The notes below the pieces were generated by a model, which searched no databases, was not told the origin of the DNA, and was given only the letters and a program-made list of their open reading frames with translations. Below are positions 1,909 through 48,840 of a stretch of 64,000 nucleotides of DNA, in pieces. The translations under genes and the position numbers were made by a program. The number at the start of each line of letters is the position of its first letter. Position 1 is the stretch's first letter. Origin of the DNA: Taklimakanibacter albus (GTDB lineage: Bacteria > Pseudomonadota > Alphaproteobacteria > Rhizobiales > Aestuariivirgaceae); the NCBI RefSeq assembly GCF_016595235.1, contig NZ_JAENHL010000007.1, forward strand, positions 124,001 to 188,000, in the 5' to 3' direction.

Positions 1909-2397
1909 ATGACCGCCAAGGATGCGCCAGATACCAATCGCCTCGCCGCCGTCGATCTCGACGACAGCATCGGCTCGGCGCTCAGCGCCGATGCCGATCA
2001 CGAGCGCCGTGTCGCCATCTATGATCTCATCGAGGACAACCGTTTCACCGTGATCGGCCACGAGACCGGCCCCTATCGCCTGGCGCTTTCGGCCGCCGAC
2101 GGCCGCATCATCTTCGACATCTGGAGCGCCCGGGAAGAACGCGTCTCGATGATCGGCCTGTCGCTCTCGCCCTTCCGGCGCATCGTGAAGGACTATTTCA
2201 TGATCTGCGAGAGCTACTACAAGGCGATCCGCACCGCGACGCCGAGCCAGATCGAAACCATCGACATGGCGCGGCGCGGCCTGCACAATGAAGGAGGCGA
2301 CCTGCTGAAGGAACGGCTCGACGGCAAGATCGAGGTCGATATGACCACCTCGCGCCGGCTGTTCACATTGCTTTGCGTATTGCATTGGCGCGGCTGA
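1909..2397 (+). CDS. UPF0262 family protein
   Basis: A 162-residue protein of an uncharacterised alphaproteobacterial family. Recognisable parts are [12 protein letters not shown], the central [20 protein letters not shown] and the C-terminal [14 protein letters not shown]. It is soluble, with no signal or membrane segment. In related genomes it sits between hisD and a small phosphatase gene and upstream of infA. Here the downstream partners are present but hisD is not, and a palindromic element lies upstream. The next gene follows after 12 bases, suggesting cotranscription. Function is unknown. Confidence 0.88.
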
Positions 2398-2409
2398 GCG
2401 GGCGTCTCG

Positions 2410-2856
2410 ATGGCGGCTGATCTCCCGGGAGCTCTGCTCTTCGCCTGCACCCAGAACGTCATCCGCTCGCCGATGGCGGCGGCCATCGCCCGGCATTTCT
2501 ACGGCAACCGCGTCTTCGTCGCCTCCTGCGGCGTGAAGCCCGGCGAGCCCGATCCTTTCGTCGGCGTCGTCATGGACGAGATCGGCATGAATCTCAGCAA
2601 GCACCGGCCGCAGAGTTTCGCCGATCTCGAGGATTCGAGCTTCGACATCGTCATCTCGCTGTCGCCCGAGGCCCACCATCGGGCCCTCGAAATGACCCGC
2701 ACCATGGCCATCGAGGCGGAATACTGGCCGACCATGGACCCGTCCGCCGCGATGGGCAGCCGCGAGCAGATTCTCGATGCCTATCGCGACGTCCGCGACG
2801 GCCTGATGCGCCGCATCCGGGCCCGATTCGGGGCGCAAGGGGCACGCGGCGTGTAA
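2410..2856 (+). CDS. Low-molecular-weight protein-tyrosine-phosphatase-like protein
   Basis: A 148-residue cytoplasmic protein of the LMW-PTP/arsenate reductase fold. The P-loop near residue 13 reads CTQNVIRSP, which keeps the Cys-X5-Arg-Ser phosphate-binding signature (the family's usual form is CxxNxCRS; here Ile replaces the second Cys). The general-acid Asp-Pro pair is likely in WPTMDPS towards the C-terminus. It could be a tyrosine phosphatase or an ArsC-like reductase; the single P-loop Cys and housekeeping location favour phosphatase, but the substrate is unknown. It lies in the conserved UPF0262 - phosphatase - infA order. Confidence 0.85.
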   Translation: MAADLPGALLFACTQNVIRSPMAAAIARHFYGNRVFVASCGVKPGEPDPFVGVVMDEIGMNLSKHRPQSFADLEDSSFDIVISLSPEAHHRALEMTRTMAIEAEYWPTMDPSAAMGSREQILDAYRDVRDGLMRRIRARFGAQGARGV

Positions 2857-2931
2857 ATTAGCGCGCCGACTTGATTTTACCGGGCAACCGGTTCATGGGT
2901 AGCCGCGATCGTTAACCAGCCAGGGAACCTT

Positions 2932-3150
2932 ATGGCGAAGGAAGAATTGCTTGAATTTGAGGGCACGGTGACCGAGCTCCTGCCCAACGCGACTTTCCGC
3001 GTAAAGCTCGACAATAACCATGAGATCATCGCCCATACCGCCGGCAAGATGCGCAAGAACCGCATCCGCGTGCTCGCCGGCGACCGTGTCATGGTCGAAA
3101 TGACGCCCTATGACCTGACCAAGGGCCGCATCAACTATCGCTTCAAATAG
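2932..3150 (+). CDS. infA: Translation initiation factor IF-1
   Basis: A complete 72-residue IF-1, the OB-fold factor that binds the 30S A site during initiation. It starts with [13 protein letters not shown] and contains the family core [20 protein letters not shown], then the basic [11 protein letters not shown] stretch and [18 protein letters not shown]. The 75-base gap upstream suggests its own promoter. It precedes maf and yacG as in other Hyphomicrobiales. Confidence 0.98.
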
Positions 3151-3164
3151 GGACCGGCGGACGA

Positions 3165-3803
3165 ATGACGGAAGCCCGCGTCAAGCTCGTGCTGGCCAGC
3201 GCCTCACCGCGCCGCCTGGCGCTGCTCGAGCAGGCGGGCATCAAGCCCGACCTCCTGATGCCGGCAGACATCGACGAGACGCCGATGAAGCGGGAAACCC
3301 CGCGCCGCCTGGCGATCCGGCTTGCCAATGAGAAGGCGCGCACCGCTCAGGAAGCTCCCCTCGTCAAGAAGCTCGGCACCAAGACCTTCATCATCGCCGC
3401 CGATACGGTGGTGGGGCTCGGCCGCCGTATCCTGCCCAAGCCCGAAACGCCCGAAGAGGCCGAATCCTGCCTGTGGCTGCTGTCGGGCCGTTCGCACTGG
3501 GTCTATTCGGCCGTGACGCTCCTGGCGCCCGGTGGCCAATCCTGGCGGCGCTGCTCCGAAACGAAGGTCCGCTTCAAGCGCTTCTCGCGCGAGGATGTCG
3601 ACACCTATCTCAAATCCGGTGAATGGCGCGGCAAGGCCGGCGGCTATGCGGTGCAGGGACGCGCCGAATCATTCGTGCGTACCTTGAGCGGCTCACATTC
3701 GGGCGTGGTCGGACTGCCGCTCTACGAAACCATCCATCTCCTCCATGGCGCGGGCTATCCTGTCCATTACACATGGCTGACCGCGCCCCTTAGCGGCGTA
3801 TGA
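3165..3803 (+). CDS. maf: Maf-like nucleoside triphosphate pyrophosphatase
   Basis: A 212-residue Maf/YhdE-type enzyme that hydrolyses non-canonical or selected nucleoside triphosphates to monophosphates, a house-cleaning activity in the cytoplasm. The hallmark [17 protein letters not shown] is at residues 9-25, followed by [11 protein letters not shown], the catalytic-Asp region [15 protein letters not shown] and the [15 protein letters not shown] segment. All usual motifs are present and the length is normal. It begins 14 bases after infA, and its stop overlaps the start of yacG (ATGA at 3800-3803), so the two are translationally coupled. Confidence 0.95.
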
Positions 3804-8453: not shown

Positions 8454-8509
8454 GCATTGTGCATATTTGTCAGGCAAAAGAAAACAATGTTGGAAGTTCA
8501 TGAAATTTC

Positions 8510-9475
8510 ATGTCTCCGCCATTGCCACCTGCCAAAAACCGCTATAGCGTCACGTCCGTCTTTGGGGACAATGTTTGCATGCGCATATATTCCAAGGAAG
8601 GCTACGCGCCCTTCCGTGACTATGTAACCTGGTACCGCGTAACGGGTGATCCTCAGTCGAAAAAGCCGCCAGTGGTGCTCTTGCACGGCGGTCCGGGCGC
8701 CGCCCACGACTATCTCGACAGATACAAGCTTCTCGCCCGCGACGGACGCCAGGTCATCCACTATGACCAGCTGGGCTGCGGCAAATCCACTTTGCTCCCC
8801 GACAAGGGCGCCGACTTCTGGACGCCCAAGCTCTTCGTCGAGGAGCTCAACAGCCTCATCGATTTTCTGGGAATTCGCTCCGCCTATCACGTCCTGGGCC
8901 AGTCCTGGGGCGGCATGCTCGGCGCCGAATTCGGCATCACCCGGCCCAAGGGCCTCAAATCGCTGACCATCGCCAACTCGCCGGCCTCGATGGAACTCTG
9001 GGTGGCGGAAGCAAACCGCCTGCGCTCCGAGATGCCGGCGAAAATCCGCTCGGCGCTCGACCGGCATGAGAAGGCCGGCACCTTGACCGACCCGGAATAT
9101 CTCGATGCGGCCATGGCCTTTTATGAGCGCCATGTCTGCCGCGTCGTCCCCTTTCCGCCGGAAGTGAAACGCTCCTTCGACCAGATCGGGCGCAACCCGA
9201 CCGTCTACAACACGATGAACGGACCCAATGAGTTCTTCGTCATCGGCAGCCTCAAGACCTGGAGCGTCGTCGACAAGGTCAAAGCCATCGACGTGCCCAC
9301 CCTTCTGATCTCCGGCCGCTATGACGAGGCGACGCCGGCCGTCGTGCAGCCTTTCGCCGACAATATCAAAGGCGCGCGCTGGGTGATCTTCGAGAAATCG
9401 AGCCACCTGCCGCATGTCGAAGAAACCGAAAAATGCATGAAGACCGTCGCTTCTTTCCTCGACGAGAACGACTAG
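8510..9475 (+). CDS. Proline iminopeptidase-family alpha/beta hydrolase
   Basis: A 321-residue alpha/beta hydrolase. The oxyanion motif HGGPGAAHDY is near residue 60, the nucleophile elbow GQSWGG near residue 133, the acid in SGRYDEATP and the catalytic His in SHLPHVEE near the C-terminus. HGGPG plus GQSWGG is the combination seen in proline iminopeptidases and amino-acid amidases that remove N-terminal residues from small peptides. There is no signal peptide, so it should be cytoplasmic. It sits 28 bases upstream of a complete oligopeptide-type ABC importer, suggesting that it processes the imported peptides or amides. Confidence 0.88.
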   Translation: MSPPLPPAKNRYSVTSVFGDNVCMRIYSKEGYAPFRDYVTWYRVTGDPQSKKPPVVLLHGGPGAAHDYLDRYKLLARDGRQVIHYDQLGCGKSTLLPDKGADFWTPKLFVEELNSLIDFLGIRSAYHVLGQSWGGMLGAEFGITRPKGLKSLTIANSPASMELWVAEANRLRSEMPAKIRSALDRHEKAGTLTDPEYLDAAMAFYERHVCRVVPFPPEVKRSFDQIGRNPTVYNTMNGPNEFFVIGSLKTWSVVDKVKAIDVPTLLISGRYDEATPAVVQPFADNIKGARWVIFEKSSHLPHVEETEKCMKTVASFLDEND

Positions 9476-9503
9476 ACACCAAAAAACGACAGGGAGACGT
9501 CCA

Positions 9504-11162
9504 ATGAAGAAATGGTTGCTGGCAGGCGCCGCGGCCCTGCTGATCAGTGCCTTGAGTACCCCGAGTTTCGCCGAATACAAAGCCGAGCACAGAGGCGGCA
9601 CGATACGCCTGCTCTCGCGTTCCGCCGGCGGCACGCTCGACCCGCATATCAATTACACGCTGCAATATTGGCAGCTCTACCAGCCGACCTATGACGGCCT
9701 CGTCACCTTCAAGAAGGCGGCGGGTGCGGAAGGTTTCAAGATCGTCGCAGATCTCGCCGAGGAAGTGCCGAAGCCCGAGAATGACGGCAAGACCTATGTG
9801 TTCAAGCTGCGCAAGGGCATCAAGTTTTCCGACGGCCGCGACCTCGGCGTGAAGGACGTCGTCGCCTCCTTCCAGCGCATCTACAAGGTGTCGAGCCCGA
9901 CCTCCGGCTCGTTCTTCTCCGGCATCGTCGGCGCCGATAAGTGCCTCGCCGAGCCGGCCAAATGCACGCTCGATGGCGGTGTTGTGGCCGATGAGGCGAA
10001 CAATACCGTTACCATCAATCTCACCCAGCCGGATGCCGAGTTCTTCTACAAGCTCGGTCTCCCGCATGCCGTGATCCTCCCCGCTGACGCCCCGACCCAG
10101 GATGCGGGCTCGGTGCCCATTCCCGGCACCGGCCCTTACATGTTCAGCTCCTATGACCCGAACAAAGCGCTGGTCATGGAGCGAAACCCGCATTTCAAAG
10201 TGTGGAGCGAAGAAGCCCAGCCCGACGGCTATCCCGACAAGGTCCAGTATGATTTCGGCCTGAGCGAGGAAGCCGCGGTGACCGCCATCCAGAATGGCGA
10301 GGCCGACTGGCTGTTCGACGAAATCCCGGCCGACCGTCTGGCCGAGATCGGCACCAAGAACAAGGACCAGGTTCACGTGACGCCGCTCACCGCCTGGTGG
10401 TACCTGCCGATGAACACCAGGCTGGCGCCGTTCGACAATGAGAAGGCCCGTCAGGCCGTCTCCTATGCGATCGACCGCAACGCGCTGGTCAAGATCTTCG
10501 GCGGCAAAGTGCTGGCGGCTCCCGTCTGTCAGGTCCTGCCTCCGGGCTTCCCCGGGCATGAGCCCTATTGCCCCTTCACCAAGGACCCCGGCGCGAAGTG
10601 GTCGGCGCCCGATATGGAGAAGGCCAAGAAACTCGTCGAGGAATCCGGCACCAAGGGCCAGAAGGTGACGATCATCGCCGAGGACAAGGCGATCTCCAAG
10701 GCCGTCGGCGTCTATCTGCAGAGCGTCCTGACCGATCTCGGCTACGACGCCGAAGTCAAGCCGATCGCCACCAATATCCAGTTCACTTACATCCAGAACA
10801 CCAACAACAAAGTGCAGATGTCGATCACGCAGTGGTATCAGGACTACCCTGCGGCGTCCGACTTCCTCTATGTGCTGTTCGGCTGTGAGAGCTTCCGCGA
10901 AGGCTCCGATTCATCGGTCAATATCTCCGGCTTCTGCGACAAGGAGATCAATGACAAGATGAAGGCAGCGCTCGCTTTGGGCGTCACCGACCAGGCTGCC
11001 GCCGACAAGATGTGGACCGAGATCGACAAGGCGGTCACCGACAAGGCGCCCGCCGCGGCCCTCTTCACGCCGAAGCACCTCGACTTCGTCTCCAAGCGCG
11101 TCGGCAACTTCCAGTTCAACTCGCAGTACTACTGGATGGTCACCCAGTCCTGGGTCCAGTAA
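9504..11162 (+). CDS. ABC transporter substrate-binding protein, family 5 (peptide/opine type)
   Basis: A 552-residue periplasmic binding protein. A Sec signal peptide covers residues 1-23 (KKW, a hydrophobic core, then cleavage after PSFA). The mature part shows family features: GGTLDPHINYTLQYWQLYQP, the FKLRKGIKFSDGRDL segment and GTGPYMFSSYDPNKALVMER. Length is normal for DppA/OppA-like proteins. It is the first gene of the importer and has an SD (AGGGAGA) before the ATG. The ligand cannot be read from sequence; small peptides are likely given the iminopeptidase-like neighbour. Confidence 0.93.
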   Translation: MKKWLLAGAAALLISALSTPSFAEYKAEHRGGTIRLLSRSAGGTLDPHINYTLQYWQLYQPTYDGLVTFKKAAGAEGFKIVADLAEEVPKPENDGKTYVFKLRKGIKFSDGRDLGVKDVVASFQRIYKVSSPTSGSFFSGIVGADKCLAEPAKCTLDGGVVADEANNTVTINLTQPDAEFFYKLGLPHAVILPADAPTQDAGSVPIPGTGPYMFSSYDPNKALVMERNPHFKVWSEEAQPDGYPDKVQYDFGLSEEAAVTAIQNGEADWLFDEIPADRLAEIGTKNKDQVHVTPLTAWWYLPMNTRLAPFDNEKARQAVSYAIDRNALVKIFGGKVLAAPVCQVLPPGFPGHEPYCPFTKDPGAKWSAPDMEKAKKLVEESGTKGQKVTIIAEDKAISKAVGVYLQSVLTDLGYDAEVKPIATNIQFTYIQNTNNKVQMSITQWYQDYPAASDFLYVLFGCESFREGSDSSVNISGFCDKEINDKMKAALALGVTDQAAADKMWTEIDKAVTDKAPAAALFTPKHLDFVSKRVGNFQFNSQYYWMVTQSWVQ

Positions 11163-37923: not shown

Positions 37924-39879
37924 ATGACCGACAAGCAGCCATCACGCGCCGTGCGGCTGTTCGGCACCGACGAAGCGGTCGAGCCGCCACGCATCGTGAC
38001 GGCGGGCGCCCTCAGCGTCGAATTCGAGACCGGCAATCTGCGGTATATCCGCTATGGCGGCATCGAAATGATCCGCGCCATCTCCTTCATCGTCCGTGAC
38101 AGGAATTGGGCGACCTACACGCCGCTCCTCTCCAACCTGCTGGTCGAGGAGAACGGCGACAGCTTCGCCATCAGCTATGACGCCGAGACGAAGGACGAGG
38201 ACCAGTCCTTCCGCTACTCGGCCAGGATCACCGGTGCCGCCGATGGCAGCATCGATTTCATGGCCGAGGGCAAGGCGGCGACCGACTTCGTCACCAACCG
38301 CACCGGCTTCGTCGTGCTGCACCCGATCGCCGGCGTCGCGGGGAGGCCCGCCTGGGTCGAGACGGCGGACGGCAAGAAGGTCGACACGAGCTTCCCCGAT
38401 CTCATCTCGCCGGCCCAGCCGATCATGAATATGCGCGCCATCACGCATGAATTTGCACCGGGCGCCCGCGTCGTCTGCCGCATGGAAGGCGATGTCTATG
38501 AAATGGAGGACCAGCGCAACTGGATGGATGCCTCCTACAAGACCTATGTGCGCCCGCTGGCGAAGCCCTGGCCCTATGAGCTGAAGAAGGGCGAGAAGCT
38601 CAAGCAGAAAGTATCGCTGCGCCTCGACGGCGAAGCGCCTGAGGCCAATGCCAAGGCAAAGCCCGTCACCATACGGGTGGGCAAGTGGCTGGGCGCCGTC
38701 CCGCCGCTGGGTGTCGGCCTCGCGCCGGAAGATGCCGCCTCGGCCGCCAAGGCGGTGACGCTTCTGGGCCAGATAAAGCCGGTGTATGTCATTTGCCACT
38801 ACGATACGCGCCTCGGCCACGATCAGAAGTCGCTGAGCGCGATGCTCAAGGTTGCGAAGGCGCTCAAGGCGGATGCCTGGCTCGAAGCCGTCGTCACCAA
38901 GGTCGAAGGCTTTGAGAAGGAGATCGCCGGCCTCGCCAAACAGGTCTCGCGGCTCAAGCCGCCCTTCAAAGCTGTATTCCTGTCGTCCGCTTCAGACATG
39001 AAGAGCACGCAGCCGACAGGCCCCTGGCCACCCTGCCCGCCGCTGGCGGACATCTACCGGCTCGCCCGCCGCCTGTTTCCCCGTAGCCGTATCGGTGGCG
39101 GCATGATGAGCTATTTCACCGAGATCAATCGCAAGCGCCCGCCCGCCGGACAGGCCGATTTCATCTCCTTCACCAACTCCGCCCTCGTTCATGCGAGCGA
39201 CGACCGTTCGGTGACTGAGGGACTAGAGGCGCTGCCGGCGATGGCCAAGAGTGTCCGGGCCCTCAGCGGCGGCAAGCCTTTCGCGGTGGGTCCCAGCGCC
39301 ATCGGCATGCGCTTCAATCCTTATGGCGCAGCGCCACAGGCCAATCCCAATGATGTGCGCCAGGCGATGAACCGCAATGATCCGCGCCAGCGCGGCCTGA
39401 TCGGCGCCGCCTGGGCCTTGGCTTATTTCGCCCATTTCGCGCGGGGCGGCGCCAGCGCCATTGCGCTTGGCGGGCTGACCGGTCCGTTTGGCGCACTCTA
39501 CAGCAAGAGCGCATGGCCGCAGGCCTGGTACGACACGAGCAAGGGCCTCTATCCCGTCTTCCACGTCCTGCGCGGGCTGGCGCGGCTTGCCGGCAATGAT
39601 CTTCTCGGCCTCGAGATCAGCCGGCCGCGCGACGTTCAGGCTTTGGCGGCACGGCGCCCGGATGGCAAAACCGAATTATGGCTCGCCAATCTCACCGGTG
39701 AGACCGTCACCGTCGATATCGGCGCCATGTTCAAGGGTGGGCGCAAGATGGTCCTGGATGAGCACCGCTTCATCCAGGCGGCGGACAAGGTAGAATTCCT
39801 GGACAGAAGCAGGGGCAAGGTGGAAACGTCGCGGCTTACGCTCGACGCCTATGCCACCTGCCGGGTCATTTCGCCCTAG
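37924..39879 (+). CDS. D-apionolactonase (ApnL)-like family protein
   Basis: A 651-residue cytoplasmic protein that I place, from memory of the family, with D-apionolactonase ApnL (lactone hydrolysis in D-apiose catabolism). It appears to have three parts: an N-terminal beta domain (about 1-240, with NLRYIRYGGIEMIRAISFIV and the family-typical VRDRNWATY), a TIM-barrel-like middle (about 245-560, with VYVICHYDTRLGHD and RIGGGMMSYFTEINRKRP) and a C-terminal beta domain (about 565-651, LWLANLTGETVTVDIG). There is no signal peptide. It is the last gene of an operon with importer, aldolase and dehydrogenase. The lactonase role is inference; an alternative is a glycoside-hydrolase-like enzyme. Confidence 0.6.
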   Translation: MTDKQPSRAVRLFGTDEAVEPPRIVTAGALSVEFETGNLRYIRYGGIEMIRAISFIVRDRNWATYTPLLSNLLVEENGDSFAISYDAETKDEDQSFRYSARITGAADGSIDFMAEGKAATDFVTNRTGFVVLHPIAGVAGRPAWVETADGKKVDTSFPDLISPAQPIMNMRAITHEFAPGARVVCRMEGDVYEMEDQRNWMDASYKTYVRPLAKPWPYELKKGEKLKQKVSLRLDGEAPEANAKAKPVTIRVGKWLGAVPPLGVGLAPEDAASAAKAVTLLGQIKPVYVICHYDTRLGHDQKSLSAMLKVAKALKADAWLEAVVTKVEGFEKEIAGLAKQVSRLKPPFKAVFLSSASDMKSTQPTGPWPPCPPLADIYRLARRLFPRSRIGGGMMSYFTEINRKRPPAGQADFISFTNSALVHASDDRSVTEGLEALPAMAKSVRALSGGKPFAVGPSAIGMRFNPYGAAPQANPNDVRQAMNRNDPRQRGLIGAAWALAYFAHFARGGASAIALGGLTGPFGALYSKSAWPQAWYDTSKGLYPVFHVLRGLARLAGNDLLGLEISRPRDVQALAARRPDGKTELWLANLTGETVTVDIGAMFKGGRKMVLDEHRFIQAADKVEFLDRSRGKVETSRLTLDAYATCRVISP

Positions 39880-40847
39880 CTTGAAGTTTGCGACCAGCGT
39901 GACTCGCGCGGCGACTCGCCGAAGCGCTCGCGATAACGCGTCGAGAAATGCGACTGGCTGGCGAAGCCGCACAGGAAGGCGATCTGCTGCAGGCTGTTGC
40001 CGGTGCGATAGGCGGTGAGGATCTGCCGGCGTGCTTCCTGAAGGCGAAGCTCCATCAGCTCATGGCCGAAGGTCGTGCCATGCATCTTGAACAGCTTGAA
40101 CAGATAGCGCAACGAGATGCGATGCGCCTGGGCGACCTTGGCCGGCGAGAGCTCGCCGTCGCCCAGATGCTCCTTCATATAGGCGCTCAGGCGCTTGAAC
40201 ATCACATGGGCAAGTGACCGGTCCTCGAATTCCTGCTGTCCCGCCTGCTGCGCCGTTTCCAGCATCAGGCAGAGCATGTCGAGAAGCGGCTCCGACAGAC
40301 GGTCCGCCGCCTCGGGCGACCAGGGCATGTCCGGCCGCATCAGGCGCGTCGCCATTTGCCCGATCGTGGCGGAGAGCGTCGCATTGGCGATGTTTTCGCG
40401 CGCACAGAGCGTGTCGATCGACGGCAAGCGTCCGCGCAGGATGGCGCACGGAATCTTGAGGGTCAGGTTCTCGAAATCATCCGAGCACGCCGCTTCATAA
40501 TATTCCGACGAATTGAGCAGCGCGACGCCGCCCGGATCGATGAAACCCGAGCGTCCGCGCTGATCGAAATAGAGCTGGCGCTTGAGTGGAAAGATGAAGA
40601 CGAAATTCTCGGCACCATCTTCCTTGGCCGCCTCCGCATAGCGGAAGACGCGCTGCTGGCTCGACTTGAAGCTCGATAGGCCGATGGGCCCGAGCACCGC
40701 CTCATGCAGCTCGCCCTGCACCTCGCCATCGATGCGCGGTTTCACGTCGACGCAATAATAGACCTGGTTCATGAAATCCCGCCAAGCGGCGAGCCGGGCG
40801 GCAGCCGGGACTTCCTCGGTGGAAAAGGCACGCAAGCCAAGCTTCAT
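39876..40847 (-). CDS. AraC family transcriptional regulator
   Basis: A 323-residue regulator with an N-terminal AraC-binding-like domain of the FeaR/NitR type and a C-terminal double helix-turn-helix (VAQAHRISLRYLFKLFKMHG and LQQIAFLCGFASQSHFSTRY, then RERFGESPRESR). The start ATG at 40847 follows AGGTGAGG at about 8 bases; in-frame starts at 40868 and 40877 lack an SD. It overlaps the lactonase-like gene tail to tail by 4 bases and is divergent from the amide operon at 41117, which it most likely activates; NitR-type relatives control nitrile or amide enzymes. Confidence 0.92.
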   Translation of the reverse strand: MKLGLRAFSTEEVPAAARLAAWRDFMNQVYYCVDVKPRIDGEVQGELHEAVLGPIGLSSFKSSQQRVFRYAEAAKEDGAENFVFIFPLKRQLYFDQRGRSGFIDPGGVALLNSSEYYEAACSDDFENLTLKIPCAILRGRLPSIDTLCARENIANATLSATIGQMATRLMRPDMPWSPEAADRLSEPLLDMLCLMLETAQQAGQQEFEDRSLAHVMFKRLSAYMKEHLGDGELSPAKVAQAHRISLRYLFKLFKMHGTTFGHELMELRLQEARRQILTAYRTGNSLQQIAFLCGFASQSHFSTRYRERFGESPRESRWSQTSS

Positions 40848-41071
40848 AGGAAAGCCCTCACCTCCCATGACCCACATCCGGGCTCGATAGTGACGGACAG
40901 GTGGGGGCGAGTCCAGAGGCAGGCTCAGGGCTTCCCACCAAAGTCGCCTGCGGGTTGGACGTCGTGCCCAGTACCTTCAGGTGAAAATGACTGTGCACTG
41001 GCGCGAAAGACGGGTCCGGTGAAGCTTCCTATAGTTGGAGCGCAGTCTGGGCCTGAGCCCATCCCTGCCGA

Positions 41072-41087
41072 GATGCGTGAACGCATC
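41072..41087. promoter_or_regulatory. Inverted repeat in the leader of the amide operon
   Basis: GATGCG (41072-41077), TGAA, CGCATC (41082-41087) lies 30 bases before the start of the binding-protein gene and in the gap shared with the divergent AraC gene. It could be an operator half or a leader hairpin next to the SD (GGAGGGAGA, 41102-41110). The rest of the 269-base gap shows no clear promoter to my eye. Confidence 0.4.
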
Positions 41088-41116
41088 CGTCAACGATATT
41101 TGGAGGGAGAGCCCGG

Positions 41117-42400
41117 ATGATCCGTCACATCAATCGCCGTCATATCGTCGGTGGTATCGCCGCCGGCGCCGTCGCGATGCCTTTCGTATCGAGGCGCCCG
41201 GCGCTGGCCGCCGATCCCATTCTGATCGGCCTGCCGACAGCGCAGACCGCCCAGGCCGGTGTCGCCGACCATCAGGACTATCTCAATGGCGCCACCCTCG
41301 CGATGGAAGAGATCAATGCCGCGGGCGGTGTGCTCGGCCGCGAGATCCAGTTCGTGGTGGTCGATGTCGATCCGCTCTCGCCCGAAAGCTGCCAGATCGC
41401 CATCAGCAAGCTCGTCGATGCCAAGGTGCATGCGATCGGCTGCGCCTTCACGCTGGTGCCCATCCCCACCGCAGACGCGTCCTCGAAATACAAATGCCCC
41501 TTCCTGTGGGGCGTCACACAGCGCAACTATACCGAGGAAGTCGCGAAAGACCCGGAGAAATACGGCCATTGCTTCCAGACCGATCCCTCGGAAGTCCATT
41601 ACGGCTACACCTTCCCGACCTTCCTGAAAGACATGCGCGATGCCGGCGTGTGGAAGCCGCTCAACAATGGCGTCCATATCGTGCAGGAGCAGATCGCCTA
41701 TAACCAGACGATCTCCAAGGCGCTGCAGGAGGCCCTGCCCAAGAGCGAGTTCACCCTCGCCAAGATCACCGACATTCAATACCCCGTGCAGGATTGGGGC
41801 CCGGTCATTCAGGACATCAAGGCGACCGGCGCCGGCGCCGTCATGATCGACCACTGGGTCGCCGCCGAATATGCCGCTTTCGTCAAGCAGTATCAGGCCG
41901 ATCCGCTCAAAGGCGCCCTCGTCTATCTGCAATATGGCCCCTCGCAGCCGGAATTCCTGGAGCTCTCGGGGCCTGCAGCCGAAGGCTTCGTGTGGAGCAC
42001 CGTGCTCGGCGTCTATGCCGATGAAAAGGGCAAGGCCTTTCGCGAGAAATATCAGAAGCGTTTCCCAGGCATCATGGGCCTTTGCTACACCGGCAACTCC
42101 TATGACACGGTCTATTTCCTGAAAGCCGCCTGGGAAGCGGTCGGCGATCCGTCGAAATTCAAGGAAGTCTGCGACTGGATCCGCGTCAATTCCTATCGCG
42201 GCGTCTGCGGTTTCATGGACATGAACAACAAATACCAGGAATGCGCGCATTTCCCGGACAATGGTTATGACGTCACCGCGACCGAGCTGGAAAAGGGCAT
42301 GGGCCAGCTGTTCTTCCAGGTCCAGGACGTGCAGCACAAGATCATCTATCCCGATGCGCTGAAGGAAGTGGCTCTCAGGCCCGCGCCCTGGTGGTCATGA
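41117..42400 (+). CDS. ABC transporter substrate-binding protein (branched-chain amino acid/amide type)
   Basis: A 427-residue type-1 periplasmic binding protein of the LivJ/UrtA/AmiC class. A twin-arginine-like N-terminus (NRRHIVGGIAAGAVAM, cleavage near ALA) precedes PILIGLPTAQTAQAGVADHQ and the family segment LAMEEINAAGGVLGREIQFV. It contains nine Cys residues, more than is common. Its stop overlaps the first ATPase gene (ATGA). As the operon ends in a dimethylformamidase-like enzyme, the ligand may be a small amide; urea or a branched-chain amino acid are alternatives. Confidence 0.88.
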   Translation: MIRHINRRHIVGGIAAGAVAMPFVSRRPALAADPILIGLPTAQTAQAGVADHQDYLNGATLAMEEINAAGGVLGREIQFVVVDVDPLSPESCQIAISKLVDAKVHAIGCAFTLVPIPTADASSKYKCPFLWGVTQRNYTEEVAKDPEKYGHCFQTDPSEVHYGYTFPTFLKDMRDAGVWKPLNNGVHIVQEQIAYNQTISKALQEALPKSEFTLAKITDIQYPVQDWGPVIQDIKATGAGAVMIDHWVAAEYAAFVKQYQADPLKGALVYLQYGPSQPEFLELSGPAAEGFVWSTVLGVYADEKGKAFREKYQKRFPGIMGLCYTGNSYDTVYFLKAAWEAVGDPSKFKEVCDWIRVNSYRGVCGFMDMNNKYQECAHFPDNGYDVTATELEKGMGQLFFQVQDVQHKIIYPDALKEVALRPAPWWS

Positions 42401-43164
42401 CGAAGACTCAAGTGAGCGCGTCGCAACCGCTCTTCGCCTGCTCGGATATCAGCCTCGACCTTGGCGGCCGTGAGATCCTGCGAAAGATCTCACTCGCCGT
42501 CGGGCCGGGCGAGGTGCTGGGCATCATCGGGCCGAATGGCGCCGGCAAGACGAGCCTCTTCGAGGTCCTGTCGGGACGCATCGCGCCCAAATCCGGCACC
42601 GTGACCTTCAGGGGCAAGGATGTCACGCGTTTGCGCCTGCATGAGCGCGCCAGGCTCGGCATCGGCCGCACCTATCAGACGCCGGTGGTTCCGGAAGACC
42701 TGACCGTCGGCGAGGTGCTGAAGGCGGCACGCCAGGCCTACAGGCCCTATCTCACCGGCGACCACGCCGAATGGGGCGCCGAGCTGGTGCGTTTCAAGAT
42801 CGACAGCCACAAGCCTGCCTCGCGCCTCGACACGCTCGACCGGCGCAAATTGCTGCTGACCTGCCTTCTGATGCGCCACCCGCCCCTCATCCTGATGGAT
42901 GAGCCGGCGGCCGGCCTCATCAATTCCGAGGTCGACGAGTTCGACGACCTGATCCGCATCCTGTCCAAGGAGATGAATGTCGCGATCATCATTGTCGAGC
43001 ATCGCATCGAACTTCTGGCGACCATCGCCGACCGCGTGATGGTCATGGATGCCGGCGAGACGATCTCGGAAGGTGCGCTCGATATCGTGCTGAACGACCC
43101 GCGCGTCCATGCCGCCTATTTCGAGAATGTAGTCGAAGGCAGCCTCGACGAGGAGGCCGCTTAA
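42397..43164 (+). CDS. ABC transporter ATP-binding protein, LivG type
   Basis: A 255-residue HAAT-family ATPase. Walker A is GPNGAGKTS and the Walker B region is LILMDEPAAGLINSEVDE, with the switch histidine in IIVEHRIELL. The ABC signature is degenerate: where LSGGQ is expected the sequence reads LDTLDRRKLLL, as in some LivG/UrtD-type subunits. The start ATG at 42397 overlaps the binding-protein stop; the GTG at 42391 is two codons upstream. Confidence 0.9.
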   Translation: MTKTQVSASQPLFACSDISLDLGGREILRKISLAVGPGEVLGIIGPNGAGKTSLFEVLSGRIAPKSGTVTFRGKDVTRLRLHERARLGIGRTYQTPVVPEDLTVGEVLKAARQAYRPYLTGDHAEWGAELVRFKIDSHKPASRLDTLDRRKLLLTCLLMRHPPLILMDEPAAGLINSEVDEFDDLIRILSKEMNVAIIIVEHRIELLATIADRVMVMDAGETISEGALDIVLNDPRVHAAYFENVVEGSLDEEAA

Positions 43165-43165
43165 G

Positions 43166-43903
43166 ATGGACCATGCCGTGCCGCAGAAGAAGGAAGTACT
43201 GAACGTCAAAGGCCTGTCGGCCGGCTATGGGCCGATGCGCGTCATCCACGACCTCGATCTCATCGTCTATTCGGGCGAGCGGGTCGGCCTTGTCGGCCTC
43301 AACGGACATGGCAAGTCGAGCTTGTTCTTGGGCATCGCCGGCCTCACCGGCTGGCAGCGCGGCTCGATCAAGCTCAATGGCGTCGAGGTCGGCCGCACCA
43401 GAAGCCAGGGGCCCGGCCGCTACACCCATCAGGTCGTCCGCCAGGGCCTGGCGCTGATCCCGCAGGGTGATGAGATCTTCACCGGCCTCACCGTCGAGGA
43501 GCATCTCGACAGCGGCGCCTTCACCCCGCGCGCCTGGCGCGAGCGGGCCGAGCGCAAGGAACACGTGCTCAAGATCTTCCCGCCGCTCCGCAAGCTCATG
43601 AAGACGGCGGTCGGCCGCCTCTCGGGTGGCGAGCGCCGCATGGTGTCGATCGGCCGCGGCCTGATGGCGGAAGCCTCGCTCTTCCTGGTCGACGAGCCTT
43701 CGCTGGGCCTCGCACCCAAGATCGGCAAAGGCGTCCTCGACGCGCTGATGAGCGTCGAGCTCGGCCAGTCGGCCATGATCATCGCCGAGCAGAATGTCGC
43801 TCTGCTCGAAGGCCGCGTCGACCGGGTCATCGGCATGCATGTCGGCAAATTGAAGGGCGAGGCTTCGGCTTCTCTCACGTTTCAGACCAGGCGGGAGCAT
43901 TAG
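43166..43903 (+). CDS. ABC transporter ATP-binding protein, LivF type
   Basis: A 245-residue second ATPase. Walker A is GLNGHGKSS (family consensus GxNGxGKTT; Ser replaces the final Thr), the signature is LSGGERRM and Walker B LFLVDEPSLGLAPK. It contains LALIPQGDEIFTGLTVEEHL, a LivF mark. Two bases separate it from LivG. A palindromic element begins at its stop codon. Confidence 0.93.
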   Translation: MDHAVPQKKEVLNVKGLSAGYGPMRVIHDLDLIVYSGERVGLVGLNGHGKSSLFLGIAGLTGWQRGSIKLNGVEVGRTRSQGPGRYTHQVVRQGLALIPQGDEIFTGLTVEEHLDSGAFTPRAWRERAERKEHVLKIFPPLRKLMKTAVGRLSGGERRMVSIGRGLMAEASLFLVDEPSLGLAPKIGKGVLDALMSVELGQSAMIIAEQNVALLEGRVDRVIGMHVGKLKGEASASLTFQTRREH

Positions 43904-43965: not shown

Positions 43966-44847
43966 ATGAACTGGAGCTTCGTCATCGCCAATGCGATCAC
44001 GCTCGCCTGCATCTACGGCACGCTCGCCATCGGCATTTCGATCACCTGGTCGAGCCTCGGCCTCATCAACATGGCCTATGGCTTCATCTTCGCTTTGTCG
44101 GGTTATGGCGCCTGGCTCGCGGCGCAATATATCTCCGCCAACGGCTTCGTCGTCATGGGCGCCGGCATCTTGACCGGCGCTATAGGCGGCATGCTGGTCT
44201 GCGCCCTCGCTTTCATCCCCATCCACGACAAGCCCAATTTCACCGTGCGCGGCATGATCGCCACGCTCGCCGTGAGCCTGGTCGGCAACCAGGCGCTGCT
44301 GTGGTATTTCGGCCCACGCGCCAAGAGCCTGCCGCCGCTCTTCGGCTCCTCGCAGACGTCGATCTTCGGCGTGGTGATGACCGCCGACAAGATCGGGGCG
44401 GTGGTTTCCTCCGTGGTGCTGCTCTCGGCGGTTCTGCTGTGGATGCGCTCGAGCCGGCGCGGCCTCGAGATCCGCGCCATGATGATGAACCCGCATGCCG
44501 CCGCGATCGTCGGTATCGGGGTCAGGCGCACCGGCTTCTATGTGATGGCATTGACCGGCGGCCTTGCCGGCCTCGCCTCGGTGCTGCTCTCGCAGACCTA
44601 TTATGTCGGTCCCTTCAGTGGCATCACGCCGATGGTCAAAGGCCTGAGCGTGGCGCTCTGCGGCGGGCTCGGCAGCGTCTTCGGCGCGGTGATCGCCGCA
44701 GCCTTGCTCGGCATCAACGAAGCCATGACGTCCGTCGTTTTCGGCGGTCAATATGTGCTCATCACCCAGTTCGCGCTGATCATCCTGATCCTGCTGATCC
44801 GGCCGCGCGGCATTGCCGGCATCCTCGACAAGGCGCGCGAGGCCTGA
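43966..44847 (+). CDS. Branched-chain-type ABC transporter permease, LivH type
   Basis: A 293-residue inner-membrane permease with about eight helices. It begins WSFVIANAITLACIYGTLAI, has the LivH-typical SSLGLINMAYGFIFALSGYG and ends with ILLIRPRGIAGILDKAREA. The loop RRGLEIRAMMMNPHAAAIVG contacts the ATPases in this family. The LivM-type gene follows after 3 bases. Confidence 0.93.
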   Translation: MNWSFVIANAITLACIYGTLAIGISITWSSLGLINMAYGFIFALSGYGAWLAAQYISANGFVVMGAGILTGAIGGMLVCALAFIPIHDKPNFTVRGMIATLAVSLVGNQALLWYFGPRAKSLPPLFGSSQTSIFGVVMTADKIGAVVSSVVLLSAVLLWMRSSRRGLEIRAMMMNPHAAAIVGIGVRRTGFYVMALTGGLAGLASVLLSQTYYVGPFSGITPMVKGLSVALCGGLGSVFGAVIAAALLGINEAMTSVVFGGQYVLITQFALIILILLIRPRGIAGILDKAREA

Positions 44848-44850
44848 TCC

Positions 44851-46488
44851 ATGACCACCACCTGGAAAAATCCGGTCTCCGCCTTCGATCCGGAAAAGCC
44901 GGTCGAGGAAGTCGTCACCAACGACTATCTCTCGCCGCAGTCGCAATGGGACGCGACCCGCTCCTATAACGTGCCGACCCCTCCGGTCGGGCGCCTGCGC
45001 TACTATCACAAATGGGCCGGCCACGGCGACAAGCTCTGGCATCGCCTGCGCTACTGGCCGACGCGCCGCCGCGTGCTCGATATCTCGGGCGGCTACAATT
45101 CCAAGACCTTGCGGCGCCAGAAGACGATCGAGGACAAACGCCCGATCTGGTGGATCTTGAGCCTCCTGGCGCTGGCGATCGCCCCCTTTTTCATTCCCGA
45201 GAACCAGCAGAATGCGCTGCTGACCGCCGGCGCCGTCTTCGGCATCTATGCCGCCATCAATCTGTGCTGGATGCTGATCATCGGCACCGCCGGCATCTAT
45301 TCCCTGGCGACCTATGCGGTGGTGGGGGCCGCCGCCTATGGCTCGGCCTATCTCTCGATCCATATGGGCCTGCCCTGGTGGGCCATGCCCCTGGTCGGCA
45401 GTGTCATCGGCCTCGTCTTCGGCGTCATCATCGCCATTCCGGCGACAAGGCTCGAGGGCTTCTACTACGCCCTGCTCACGCTCGGCCTGGTCGAGCTCTG
45501 CCGCGTCTATGTCATCCAGTCGCGCGAATTCGGCTCGGCGACGGGCGGCCTCTACGGCGCCGACAGCTACATCCCGCAGGACTGGCCGCAGCATGCCCAG
45601 CTTCTGCTCGGCTATTATGCGGGCCTCGTTTTGATGATCCTGGGACTGTTCCTGTTCCGCTTCGTCAATGGCAAGCGGCTCGGCCGCGTGCTGCGCATGG
45701 CGCCGGAAAAACGCGAGGCCTTCGCCGAGGCGACCGGCGTCAATTACCGCGCCGCCCGCATTCAGGTGTTCCTCATCTCGTCATTGGCGCTGGGTTTCAT
45801 CGGCGGCTTCTATTCGGCGCATTTCCGCGGCGCGGCGCCCAGCCTTTTCTCTTTCGATACGATGCTGCTGTCGCTCGCCATGCTGGTCATCGGTGGCCTG
45901 GGCCGCGCCGAAGGCGCCGTGCTCGGCACCCTCATCGTCGTCTTCATCGACCGCGTGCTGGTCGATTGGGGGCCGATGCGTTTCGTCCTGATCGGCACCC
46001 TCATGCTGCTGGTGGTGCTGTTCCTGCGCGGCGGCCTGTTCGGCATCAAGGAACAGTTCCGCGCCTGGCGCGACAAGAAGAAGAGCGAGAACCGTTCGTC
46101 ACGGGCGGAGAAAGGTGGAGAGATGTTACCCGAGGAAGCGACCGAGACCGAAAACAAGGACATCATCTATTTCCGCCGCTTCGACAAGATGCAGCGCGAT
46201 TTTCTCAAGAAGCTCATCACGCCCGAAATCATCGAGGAGCATCGCAAGCGGCCGCTCGGCCAGCACAGCGAAGCGCTCGAGCGCGTGCTCACCTATTTCC
46301 GCCGTCAGCCGCAGAACGACAAATATGCGATCACGGTGATCGAGCCCTTCAAGTCCTATCGCCTCGTGGCGCTGTCGGGCACGCGCGGCGTGGCCCCGCG
46401 CCTCGTCGAGGACAAGATCTATGGCAGTCCCGACGAGGCCTATCACGCTCTGTTCCTGCGCCGCGTGCAGGACCTGCTGGAAGCCTGA
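44851..46488 (+). CDS. LivM-type ABC permease fused to a dimethylformamidase small-subunit domain
   Basis: A 545-residue protein with three parts. Residues 1-95 are a hydrophilic, basic extension not usual in LivM. Residues about 96-400 are the LivM permease (WWILSLLALAIAPFF, LLIIGTAGIYSLATYA-type helices, the loop with GVNYRAARIQVFLISS, and the final LIGTLMLLVVLFLRGGLFG). After a charged linker, residues about 438-545 match what I recall of the roughly 130-residue N,N-dimethylformamidase small subunit: IIEEHRKRPLG, LTYFRRQPQNDKYAI, and HALFLRRVQDLLEA. The frame is continuous. A LivM C-terminus is cytoplasmic, so the domain would face the large subunit encoded 33 bases downstream. Confidence 0.85.
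   Translation: MTTTWKNPVSAFDPEKPVEEVVTNDYLSPQSQWDATRSYNVPTPPVGRLRYYHKWAGHGDKLWHRLRYWPTRRRVLDISGGYNSKTLRRQKTIEDKRPIWWILSLLALAIAPFFIPENQQNALLTAGAVFGIYAAINLCWMLIIGTAGIYSLATYAVVGAAAYGSAYLSIHMGLPWWAMPLVGSVIGLVFGVIIAIPATRLEGFYYALLTLGLVELCRVYVIQSREFGSATGGLYGADSYIPQDWPQHAQLLLGYYAGLVLMILGLFLFRFVNGKRLGRVLRMAPEKREAFAEATGVNYRAARIQVFLISSLALGFIGGFYSAHFRGAAPSLFSFDTMLLSLAMLVIGGLGRAEGAVLGTLIVVFIDRVLVDWGPMRFVLIGTLMLLVVLFLRGGLFGIKEQFRAWRDKKKSENRSSRAEKGGEMLPEEATETENKDIIYFRRFDKMQRDFLKKLITPEIIEEHRKRPLGQHSEALERVLTYFRRQPQNDKYAITVIEPFKSYRLVALSGTRGVAPRLVEDKIYGSPDEAYHALFLRRVQDLLEA
46113..46125 (+). promoter_or_regulatory. Possible internal ribosome binding site and start codon
   Basis: AGGTGGAGAG followed by ATG (46123-46125, Met425 of the fusion protein) lies in the linker between the permease and the small-subunit domain, in the same frame. 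Starting here would give a free 121-residue protein, close to the roughly 130 residues of separate dimethylformamidase small subunits. Whether it is used is unknown. Confidence 0.45.
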
Positions 46489-46521: not shown

Positions 46522-48840
46522 ATGGCGCAAATCAAAGTCTTTGGTTACACGGACAAGATCTCCGTGAAGCCCGGTGACGAGCTCACCTTCCATATCCATG
46601 CTGACGGCACCGACAAAGCCATGGCGCAACTGGTCCGGCTCATCCATGGCGACGAGCATCCGAGCGGCCCGGGCTTCATCGAGGAGGAGATCGCCTCGCC
46701 GCTCAACGGCGAATGGAAGGTCCGCAAGCAATATACCCAGGTCGGCTCGTTCCTCACCGTGGACGACCCTGGTCAAAGGCTGGGCCAGGACGGCGACTTC
46801 ACCCTCTGCGCCTTCATCTACCCCACCCTTCACGGCAATGGCGTGCGCCAGGCTCTGCTCGGCCGCTGGGACATCTACAAGAACGAAGGCTTCGCGCTGT
46901 GGATCAACCAGAAGGGCTTTCTCGAATTCGGCGTCGGCGATGGCGAGGAAGTCGACTATCTCGCGGCCGAGGCGCCGCTCATCCGGAACATGTGGTATTT
47001 CGTGGCGGCGAGCTATGACCGTAAGAGCGGCAAGGCCACGCTCTATCAGGAATGCGTGGCGACCCGGTACAACAGCCTCCTCAGCAAGGTGGTGCCTTAC
47101 GACTACCGCTCGCATGTGCGCGAGACTTTCCGCTTCAAGCCGAAGAACCCGAAGGACCTGCCCTTTCTCATCGCCGGGGCGCGTGACTGGCATGAGGTCA
47201 GAGGCTCGTTCGTCGCCCAGAATTTCAACGGCAAGATCGACCGGCATGGCATGTTCGACCGGGTTCTCACGCGCGAGGAGCTGGACGGTATTCGCGACAC
47301 CGGCAAGCCGCCGCAATCCGGCATCATCGCTTATTGGGACACGACCGCCGGCTATACCGACTATGGCATTGGCGATGAGGTCCGCGACATCGGGCCCCAT
47401 GGCCTGCATTCCAAAGGCTACAATCGCCCGGTCCGCGCCCAGACCGGCTTCAACTGGAACGGCCGCAATGATTCATTCCGCCTGGCACCCCAGGAATATG
47501 GCGGCGTCGAGTTCCACAATGATGCGGTGATCGACTGCAAATGGGAACCGACCAAGAGCTGGACGGTGCCGGAGCTCAAGAGTGGCGCCTATGCGATGCG
47601 GCTGCGCGCCGGCGACGGCAAAGGGCTCGGGGAGGAATATGTCGTCTTCTTCGTGCGCGCCAAGACGCCTAAGGCCCGCATCGCCTTCCTGGTGCCGACC
47701 GCCAGCTATCTGGCTTACGCCAATGAGCATTTGAGCTTCGATGCCCAGATGGTGCAGCCGATCAGCGGCCAGCCGCCGATCGTGTCGGAGATCGACATCG
47801 AGCTCTATCAGACCAAGGATTTCGGCCTCTCCACCTATGACCATCACGCCGACGACGCCGGCGTCTGCTACTCCTCCTATCGCCGTCCCATTTTGAATAT
47901 GCGCCCGCGCAGCCGCCTCTCCTCGATGGGCATCACCTGGCAGTTCCCGGCCGACCTCTCGATCATCGGCTGGCTCGAGCATCTGAACTATGACTATGAG
48001 GTGCTGACCGACGAGGACCTGCATGTCGAGGGGCTGGCGGCGCTCAAGCCCTATAATCTCGTCATCAACGGCTCGCATCCCGAATATTATTCTGAGGAGA
48101 TGCTCGACGCGACCGAGGACTATATCGCCGAGGGCGGCCGGCTCATTTATATGGGCGGCAACGGCTATTACTGGAATATCGGCTTCCGGCCCGAGGAACC
48201 CTGGTGCATGGAGGTGCGCAAGCTCGATTCCGGCATGCGTGCCTGGAACGCGCGGCCCGGCGAGCATTATCTGGCGACCAACGGCCAGCGCAGCGGCCTG
48301 TGGAAGAATCTGGGCCGGCCGCCGCAGAAGCTCACCGGCGTCGGCTTCATCTCGCAAGGCTTTGAGTCGGCGAGGCCCTATCGCCGCATGCCGGACAGCT
48401 ACCACCGCCGTGCGTCCTGGATGTTCGAAGGGATCGAGGGTGAGATCATCGGCGATTTCGGCCTCGCCCATGAAGGGGCGGCCGGCATCGAGATCGACCG
48501 CTACGATCTGAGTCTCGGCACCCCGCCCCATACGCTGATCGTCGCGGCATCGGGCGGCCACAGCGACAATTACATGCTGGTCTGTGAGGAGATCCTCTAT
48601 GCCTATCCGGGCATGACCGGCACGCACGACTACCGCATCCGCGCCGACATCACCTATTTCACCGCTCCCCATGACGGCGCCGTCGTGTCGACCGGTTCGA
48701 TCGCTTTCGGTCAGTCGCTGCCCTTCAACAACTTCGACAACAACGTCTCGAAGCTCTTGAAGAACATCGTTGACGCCTTCGCCAAGAAGGGCAAATTGCC
48801 GGGCTGGGCCTGGACGGCTGAGGAAAAGCAATGGCGCTGA
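46522..48840 (+). CDS. N,N-dimethylformamidase-like amidohydrolase, large subunit
   Basis: A 772-residue cytoplasmic protein matching the roughly 760-residue large subunit of N,N-dimethylformamidase, which hydrolyses dimethylformamide to formate and dimethylamine. Residues about 60-260 look like a laminin-G/concanavalin-like domain (FTLCAFIYPTLHG, GFALWINQKGFLEFGVGDGE), and the rest is the catalytic part. The known Paracoccus enzyme has a two-tyrosine, one-carboxylate mononuclear iron site. The corresponding residues here are probably Tyr399 (ASYLAYANEH), Tyr439 (LSTYDHHADDAG) and Glu521 (NGSHPEYYS). SD CCGGAG precedes the ATG. The true substrate may be another formamide or small amide. Confidence 0.88.
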   Translation: MAQIKVFGYTDKISVKPGDELTFHIHADGTDKAMAQLVRLIHGDEHPSGPGFIEEEIASPLNGEWKVRKQYTQVGSFLTVDDPGQRLGQDGDFTLCAFIYPTLHGNGVRQALLGRWDIYKNEGFALWINQKGFLEFGVGDGEEVDYLAAEAPLIRNMWYFVAASYDRKSGKATLYQECVATRYNSLLSKVVPYDYRSHVRETFRFKPKNPKDLPFLIAGARDWHEVRGSFVAQNFNGKIDRHGMFDRVLTREELDGIRDTGKPPQSGIIAYWDTTAGYTDYGIGDEVRDIGPHGLHSKGYNRPVRAQTGFNWNGRNDSFRLAPQEYGGVEFHNDAVIDCKWEPTKSWTVPELKSGAYAMRLRAGDGKGLGEEYVVFFVRAKTPKARIAFLVPTASYLAYANEHLSFDAQMVQPISGQPPIVSEIDIELYQTKDFGLSTYDHHADDAGVCYSSYRRPILNMRPRSRLSSMGITWQFPADLSIIGWLEHLNYDYEVLTDEDLHVEGLAALKPYNLVINGSHPEYYSEEMLDATEDYIAEGGRLIYMGGNGYYWNIGFRPEEPWCMEVRKLDSGMRAWNARPGEHYLATNGQRSGLWKNLGRPPQKLTGVGFISQGFESARPYRRMPDSYHRRASWMFEGIEGEIIGDFGLAHEGAAGIEIDRYDLSLGTPPHTLIVAASGGHSDNYMLVCEEILYAYPGMTGTHDYRIRADITYFTAPHDGAVVSTGSIAFGQSLPFNNFDNNVSKLLKNIVDAFAKKGKLPGWAWTAEEKQWR

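Follow-up and report, generated by a model that had tools for sequence, protein, structure and literature searches.

The window, i.e., the whole stretch of 64,000 nucleotides from Taklimakanibacter albus analysed here, contains an operon for a full HAAT ABC importer (two BPD_transp_2 permeases, two ATPases and a Peripla_BP binding protein). One of its permease genes runs on into an N,N-dimethylformamidase (DMFase) small-subunit domain and is followed by the gene of a DMFase-type large subunit (Table 1). The five-gene layout and the Pfam families are common to other HAAT importers, e.g., LivFGHMK and UrtABCDE, but the fused permease, unlike LivM and UrtC, has an N-terminal extension and an enzyme-subunit tail. 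The closest solved chain to the substrate-binding protein is 3h5l_A (E = 7e-47), whose title names no ligand. The divergent AraC-family regulator likely controls the operon, and an AraC homologue is likewise divergent from the operon in two related loci (L074 and L075). A 138-aa ORF at 40704-41120 is probably no gene: it lacks a Pfam or NCBIfam family and overlaps the AraC gene.

Table 1. Features of the operon that carries the fused permease gene (window positions), with the related loci that encode two large subunits.
Feature	Position	Strand	Evidence
AraC-family regulator, divergent	39876..40877	-	PF12833, PF14525
Periplasmic substrate-binding protein	41117..42400	+	PF13458
LivG-type ATPase	42391..43164	+	PF00005
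LivF-type ATPase	43166..43903	+	PF00005
LivH-type permease	43966..44847	+	PF02653, 97.7 bits
LivM-type permease with DMFase small-subunit domain, 545 aa	44851..46488	+	Translation, Pfam, PDB sequence match, conserved ORF
N-terminal extension, residues 1-98, read as cytoplasmic, accompanies fused permeases	44851..45144	+	A7 profile search
LivM transmembrane core, residues 99-395	45145..46035	+	PF02653, predicted helices
Linker, residues 396-440, conserved as far as residue 432	46036..46170	+	Column identity
Predicted internal ribosome-binding site AAAGGTGGAGAG, codons of K421-E424	46111..46122	+	Codon-choice tests
Predicted free small subunit from internal ATG, M425, 121 aa, MLPEEATE...	46123..46488	+	ATG conservation
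DMFase small-subunit domain, residues 441-545	46171..46485	+	6lvb_B match, Foldseek
DMFase-type large subunit, 772 aa, iron ligands Y, Y, E with H519 and N547 equivalents	46522..48840	+	6lvb_A match
Two large-subunit genes: L111, L112, L115, L116, L119-L122, L130, L137, L139; plus L175	L175: 12536-17279		

Translation of the fused gene gives a single stop-free frame of 545 aa. Its permease part matches the Pfam profile BPD_transp_2 (PF02653) at residues 128-389 with 76.9 bits (cut-off 26.8), and the protein falls far under the curated NCBIfam cut-offs for LivM (70.1 vs 366 bits) and UrtC (49.1 vs 296.2 bits). No Pfam or NCBIfam model matches the tail. Among PDB sequences, the tail (115 aa, 46141-46488) matched 6lvb_B, the small subunit of DMFase, over tail residues 11-112 with E = 2.1e-11, and among plasmid records it matched dmfA1 of Paracoccus aminophilus (36.1% identity, E = 5e-10). 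The initial annotation, made from the sequence alone, had proposed this fusion on the strength of three motifs like those of DmfA1. The motifs are all found in the uninterrupted frame, similarity to the DmfA1 family is detectable, and the identification is upheld by sequence, predicted fold, broad conservation and the adjoining partner large subunit. Two genomes of the same genus (G001 and G002) carry the same whole ORF, with tails 99% and 93% identical, and the comparison of the window with G002 gave a dN/dS of 0.070 for the tail and 0.060 for the permease core. A frameshift or sequencing error at the joint, which had been a concern, is excluded because the fusion ORF is conserved across relatives, i.e., in these two genomes and in many independent assemblies. 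The ORF is confirmed as a genuine single gene, homologous to the DMFase small subunit at its C-terminal part.

The same fusion, whose occurrence elsewhere was left to be searched for, is present in alpha-, beta- and gammaproteobacteria and in SAR11. Eight of 60 genomes (the window's own counted) match the tail, and the full fusion was found in the window's genome, G001 and G002. Some small-subunit match exists in 55 of the 397 genomes of the order; we inspected all listed matches that lie in frames of at least 479 aa, a set that excludes two frames of 326 aa and 388 aa. A profile of the N-terminal extension alone (A7) matches 14 of the 397 genomes, and all 14 ORFs carry the tail, which in G252 is cut by the contig end; this search is free of tail bias since its query lacks the tail. 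G072 is a fifteenth fusion genome, in which the N-terminal extension scores below the threshold. We then have a larger set, from a scan of genome contigs with linker and tail, which confirmed 133 relatives, of which 80 loci were kept. The ORF bearing the tail also matches the permease in all 80, the permease being cut by the contig start in four and draft contigs L118 and L134 having frame breaks. Since the query included the tail, tail-less relatives could not surface among the 80 loci, and the frequency of tail-less permeases is not readable from this set; we found no tail-less permease of this type, most loci coming from a query that held the tail.

Among named relatives, linker and tail are most similar to those of Rhizobiales bacterium Y(2018), at 99% identity, and of Taklimakanibacter lacteus, at 94%. 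The 80-locus scan includes Bradyrhizobium, Rhodopseudomonas, Methylobacterium, Methylopila, Methylocella, Hyphomicrobium, Methylobacillus, Roseovarius, Pelagibacteraceae (SAR11) and others, and plasmid records extend the list to Agrobacterium, Rhizobium, Aminobacter and Ensifer. The fusion occurs in many soil, plant and ocean bacteria. It is rare in evenly drawn samples: besides the window, we confirmed it in G418 among 385 genomes of the class (a count that leaves out the weaker long-frame matches G503, G615, G648 and G752) and in G263 and G1084 among 398 genomes of the phylum. Plasmid records label the fused genes "branched-chain amino acid ABC transporter permease". Several candidates were rejected. 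The long-frame "fusions" of L064 and L065 are frame extensions of standalone small-subunit genes, as the 483-aa frame of L156, with a tail match and no permease match, also seems to be; and the "inner-membrane translocator" of Halalkalicoccus is a standalone small subunit of 180 aa. For the haloarchaeal standalone small subunit in L174 (8800-9342), this label was perhaps transferred from the fused family. One fusion lies on a 3.5-kb contig (L096) of a MAG named Klebsiella pneumoniae, to which the contig is probably misassigned.

The large subunit encoded next to the fused gene matches the DMFase large subunit 6lvb_A with E = 1.1e-175, and 8huy, N-acetyl-(R)-beta-phenylalanine acylase, with E = 1.8e-111; the large-type chain of the latter is homologous to it. 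The iron of DMFase is held by two Tyr and one Glu, with an essential His in addition; the variants Y440A, E521A and H519A are inactive, as is the large subunit alone (PMC7686228). The window protein has equivalents of Y399, Y440, H519, E521 and N547, as do all 63 loci with a single large subunit longer than 700 aa. Over the 80 loci, the large subunit is long enough to count in 75, and the active site is intact in at least one copy in all 74 examined (L144 was omitted, its large subunit being cut at 625 aa). The enzyme is thus likely alive, judging from its residues. The position of F693, a residue that in the solved DMFase is contributed across the dimer into the neighbour's pocket, is Tyr in the window and in all 63 single-large loci, which points to a pocket unlike that of DMF-degrading enzymes. 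The fused gene and the large subunit are some 1.2-1.3 kb apart in two loci, L088 of Methylobacillus (8460-9746) and L197 of genome G1084 (1960-3189), and no small-subunit match was found in either gap.

We modelled the 545-aa protein with AlphaFold2 without templates, from 43 aligned sequences, and obtained a mean pLDDT of 77.2. Of the PDB chains, 6lvb_B came closest to the model (Foldseek E = 3.1e-5, TM-score by target 0.80, rmsd 2.4 Å), and its permease part weakly matched ABC permeases (PsaBC at rank 4, BtuC at rank 5). Our helix count, which starts from an assumed cytoplasmic coupling loop at residues 276-295, would place both the N-terminal extension and the tail in the cytoplasm. The initial annotation had imagined the amidase docked on the cytoplasmic face of its importer, where it would receive the imported amide directly. 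Docking there is still the best reading, given the helix count from the model and the tight selection on the tail, and is well supported; direct passage of the amide to the enzyme would be a further, conjectural step. A model of tail and large subunit as one pseudo-chain (A6) had a mean pLDDT of 65.8 and was poor in the catalytic domain and confident mainly outside it, so that its interface is not readable. A mixed alignment of tail-only and large-only rows (A5) was misaligned and discarded.

The linker is conserved in an unusual manner. Mean column identity is 0.83 for residues 396-417, 0.93 for 418-432 and 0.65 for 433-440, with 0.75-0.76 in core and tail, and synonymous changes between the window and G002 are few (dS of 0.18 over the 45 linker codons vs 0.58 in the core and 0.61 in the tail). 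The linker sequence EKGGEMLPEEATE encloses, in frame, a Shine-Dalgarno (SD) sequence and a start codon, the ATG at 46123. We offer this codon pattern as a possible reason for the conservation of the linker, and predict that the AAAGGNGG codons belong to an internal start signal. The initial annotation and standard annotation both missed it.

To read this signal we divided the loci by the presence of a separate small-subunit gene, leaving out four of the 80 in which its status was unclear (L106, L118, L131 and L141); a locus counts as lacking the gene if none lies in the stretch examined, and two of the 52 such loci have fewer than 1000 bases past the large subunit. Loci without a separate gene typically read AAA GGN GGN GAR ATG. 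Position 425 is ATG in 51 of 53 of them, the window counted, and the two exceptions (L127 and L128) have GTG one codon later. Where GC exceeds 0.55, Lys421 is encoded by AAA in 38 of 41 loci, although the gene-wide share of this codon is 0.16; the simulated count has a mean of 6.5 and a maximum of 17 in 20,000. Most other Lys columns are 3-18% AAA, with columns 54 and 491 also AAA-rich (0.57 and 0.55). In the same 41 loci GGC-GGC is never used at positions 422-423 (20.1 expected), whereas other Gly-Gly columns of these proteins have it in 20 of 40, 25 of 39 and 26 of 40 cases. Eleven SAR11 copies read AGA GGA GGA GAA ATG. Signal and ATG are kept in Aminobacter pMDW2, which has two large subunits and no separate small-subunit gene, and in Agrobacterium pAt.

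The picture differs where a separate gene is present (24 loci). The protein sequence is still EKGGE there, but the codons are mostly AAG GGC GGC: at GC above 0.55, AAA encodes Lys421 in one of 23 loci and GGC-GGC occurs in 16 of 23. The ATG at 425 is kept in just seven of the 24. Two further loci with a separate gene, L061 and Ensifer L181, lack the ATG as well. A possible start lies one codon later in L060, L062, L066, L072 (cut by the contig end) and L155, as ATG, or as TTG in L062 and L066. Calculated SD energies were less telling. Against a null of sampled synonymous codons, and with a short anti-SD, 16 of the 53 loci without a separate gene scored 0.05 or less (window 0.21), and with a longer anti-SD, cut at -9, the two classes separated poorly (weak signal in 6 of 23 loci with the gene vs 0 of 50 without). 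Codon identity and the start codon are clearer measures than SD energy. An in-frame SD and start codon are thus found ahead of the C-terminal subunit and are conserved beyond codon bias, which is how we recognise an internal start. Since they are kept in loci without a separate gene and mostly lost in loci with one, two forms of the small subunit, one tethered and one free, are probably produced from a single gene. In the permease tree the separate gene needs just two origins, so that this contrast has little independent replication, and a test of separate gene against start signal on independent pairs had two pairs, too few to reach significance.

Taken together, we consider it fairly probable that the operon encodes an importer-anchored amidase with a tethered and a free small subunit from one gene. 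The ABC importer, with its binding protein, two ATPases and two permeases, would take up a small, probably N-methylated amide. The large subunit would bind the permease tail as that of DMFase binds its small subunit, which would anchor the amidase to the importer. The SD and ATG in the linker would start a second, free small subunit, a mechanism that we infer from the observed codon choice. An alpha2-beta2 enzyme could use one tethered and one free small subunit, the importer having one LivM. In two lineages a separate gene would supply the free copy, and the internal start would have decayed. The imported amide might, as a more speculative step, be hydrolysed at the membrane to a carboxylate and methylamine for assimilation. 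Uptake and breakdown of the amide look physically and genetically linked.

It might be objected that only the internally started free subunit matters, i.e., that this is a nested gene and the fused form a by-product of a lost LivM stop codon. The strong start signal in loci without a separate gene would fit, as would the standalone small subunits annotated in related systems, e.g., on Rhodococcus and Caballeronia plasmids. Yet a by-product would be expected to erode after a separate gene has arisen, and all 24 loci that also have such a gene still carry the fused tail, a count biased by a query that included the tail; two loci with both (L061 and L063, from G084 and G260) were also recovered by the unbiased search with the N-terminal extension. 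The initial annotation had named a separate gene in relatives that lack the tail as evidence against the fusion: the separate gene does exist in some relatives, but the tail is still kept there. The linker amino acids also stay in these loci though the start signal decays. Moreover, the fused tail has a lower dN/dS than the separate copy (0.01-0.08 vs 0.10-0.32) in nine of nine pairs, which were chosen and share some loci. This tighter constraint suggests that the tether matters, and the tether itself looks to be under selection. We therefore find the by-product reading improbable. In a quick tree of small subunits, with few columns and many unresolved forks, the separate copies nest among the fused ones, and the standalone copy from Caballeronia is found there too, at the end of a long branch. 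In L177 of Rhodococcus USK13 a standalone small/large pair of amidase genes precedes an AmiS/UreI family gene (9837-10391), and a primary-amine oxidase is encoded nearby.

The SD-like codons might instead be a site of ribosome pausing that aids membrane insertion before synthesis of the tail, without any start. They do come after the last transmembrane helix, and the linker stretch folds weakly as RNA (z = +0.96). Pausing, however, needs no start codon, and one is found at or, in two loci, one codon after position 425 in all loci without a separate gene. In addition, SD and ATG both tend to decay where there is a separate gene, though seven loci keep the ATG, and the separate genes of L116, L120 and L153 open with MLP at the homologous place, with starts chosen by us. 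Pausing is to us about as doubtful as the nested gene. Somewhat less remote, but still unlikely, is that the tail regulates the importer, with binding and release of the amidase gating uptake rather than passing substrate on. The conserved linker and N-terminal extension could carry a signal, and regulatory C-terminal domains are established on ABC importers, e.g., MetNI and OpuA. Against this, the tail is an enzyme subunit, accompanied by the large subunit and an intact active site in nearly all loci, as counted above; gating is also compatible with tethering and hence just partly a rival of the anchored amidase. That the fusion is an assembly or frameshift artefact, or the similarity a product of chance, has a negligible probability. 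Draft contigs are broken in the permease part in L118 (near the N-terminus) and L134 (just ahead of the final permease residues), but neither at the tail junction, and artefact is already refuted by independent assemblies of many taxa, the match at E = 2e-11 with its fold counterpart, and purifying selection.

The anchored amidase is best compared with DMFase itself (DmfA1/DmfA2; 6lvb; Paracoccus pAMI2 and Methylobacterium DM1), both subunits of which are homologous to the fused tail and the large subunit. Iron ligands and the equivalents of H519 and N547 are kept, and the large gene likewise comes after the small-subunit sequence; F693 is replaced by Tyr in the window's large subunit. In pAMI2 and pLVM1 the small subunit is separate and comes after a LuxR-type regulator, in contrast to its fusion with a permease here. 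The stretches viewed of these two plasmids, whose gene tables are incomplete, show no annotated importer. In DMF degraders dmfA1 and dmfA2 are genes of their own, according to PMC4543880 and PMC11381386. The nearest known arrangement is Cas11 within cas10d and its relatives (type I-B, I-C and I-D CRISPR), but proteins and purpose differ, and here the larger protein is a membrane permease. According to PMC10212523, the Cas11 small subunit is made both as the C-terminal part of a larger protein and as a free protein via an in-frame internal start, and for some systems duplication is the proposed origin of a separate gene. We found no description of a fusion of permease and amidase small subunit in open-licence PubMed Central full text. 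The component families are known; the fusion and the predicted second product from an internal start are new, as far as the searched literature shows. If our reading is true, a natural system joins cargo import and the first catabolic step by a covalent tether, one can directly test whether an ABC importer hands its substrate over to an enzyme, and internal translation of an enzyme small subunit from inside a transporter gene is added to the known cases.

The neighbours of the operon in SAR11 give hints on the substrate. Downstream of the large subunit in L124, L126, L132, L134 and L135 lie genes with GATase, GXGXG and Glu_synthase domains, which we take to be N-methylglutamate synthase. Unless the contig ends first, a type III glutamine synthetase comes next in these loci (627 bits for the representative, cut-off 469.6); gamma-glutamylmethylamide synthetase belongs to this class. 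Within flanks of up to 8 kb, genes resembling Glu_synthase or glutamine synthetase were found in 10 of 11 Pelagibacteraceae loci and in 13 of the 80 overall; the SAR11 loci with such neighbours are L124-L126, L129, L132-L136 and L142. No methylamine-assimilation gene was found among the window neighbours scanned. The SAR11 neighbours, resembling genes of methylamine assimilation, favour an N-methylated amide, and the substrate of the operon is probably a small amide of this kind. If so, the occurrence of the fusion in SAR11, in methylotrophs and in rhizobia suggests that amides have been overlooked as a source of methylamine.

Eleven loci have two large-subunit genes, and exactly one of the two has an intact active site in all eleven. 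The altered copies carry Y399F or Y399L, together with H519R (seven loci) or Y440C (four loci). A twelfth case is found in Aminobacter pMDW2, whose altered copy has E521A. At position 693 the altered partner has Tyr in 12 of 12 cases, and the intact partner has His in ten and Tyr in two. Since residue 693 reaches into the neighbour's pocket, this pattern fits, and suggests, an obligate heterodimer of a live and a dead subunit. In a quick tree the two pMDW2 copies are each other's closest relatives, whereas the remaining altered copies, 11 in number, fall into a single clade; such pairing would thus have arisen at least twice. In the Bradyrhizobium-type branch, one large subunit would be live and the other catalytically broken, the broken one keeping the pocket residue that reaches the live site. 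Only tentatively do we extend these results to a widespread importer-enzyme machine with stoichiometry set by dual translation, an asymmetric branch of the Bradyrhizobium type and a SAR11 route of N-methylamide uptake.

Three more small/large amidase pairs, with unfused small subunits, are encoded on contig C8 of the window's own genome (L069, L070 and L071). Their large subunits have intact ligand residues, with Ala, Asp or Val at the position of F693. Finally, 18 of the 80 loci (L078, L080, L085-L087, L089, L090, L104, L110, L114, L138, L143, L145 and L148-L152) encode, upstream of the operon, a PAS histidine kinase with its response regulator as well as another binding protein in divergent orientation; these possibly form a dedicated amide sensor.
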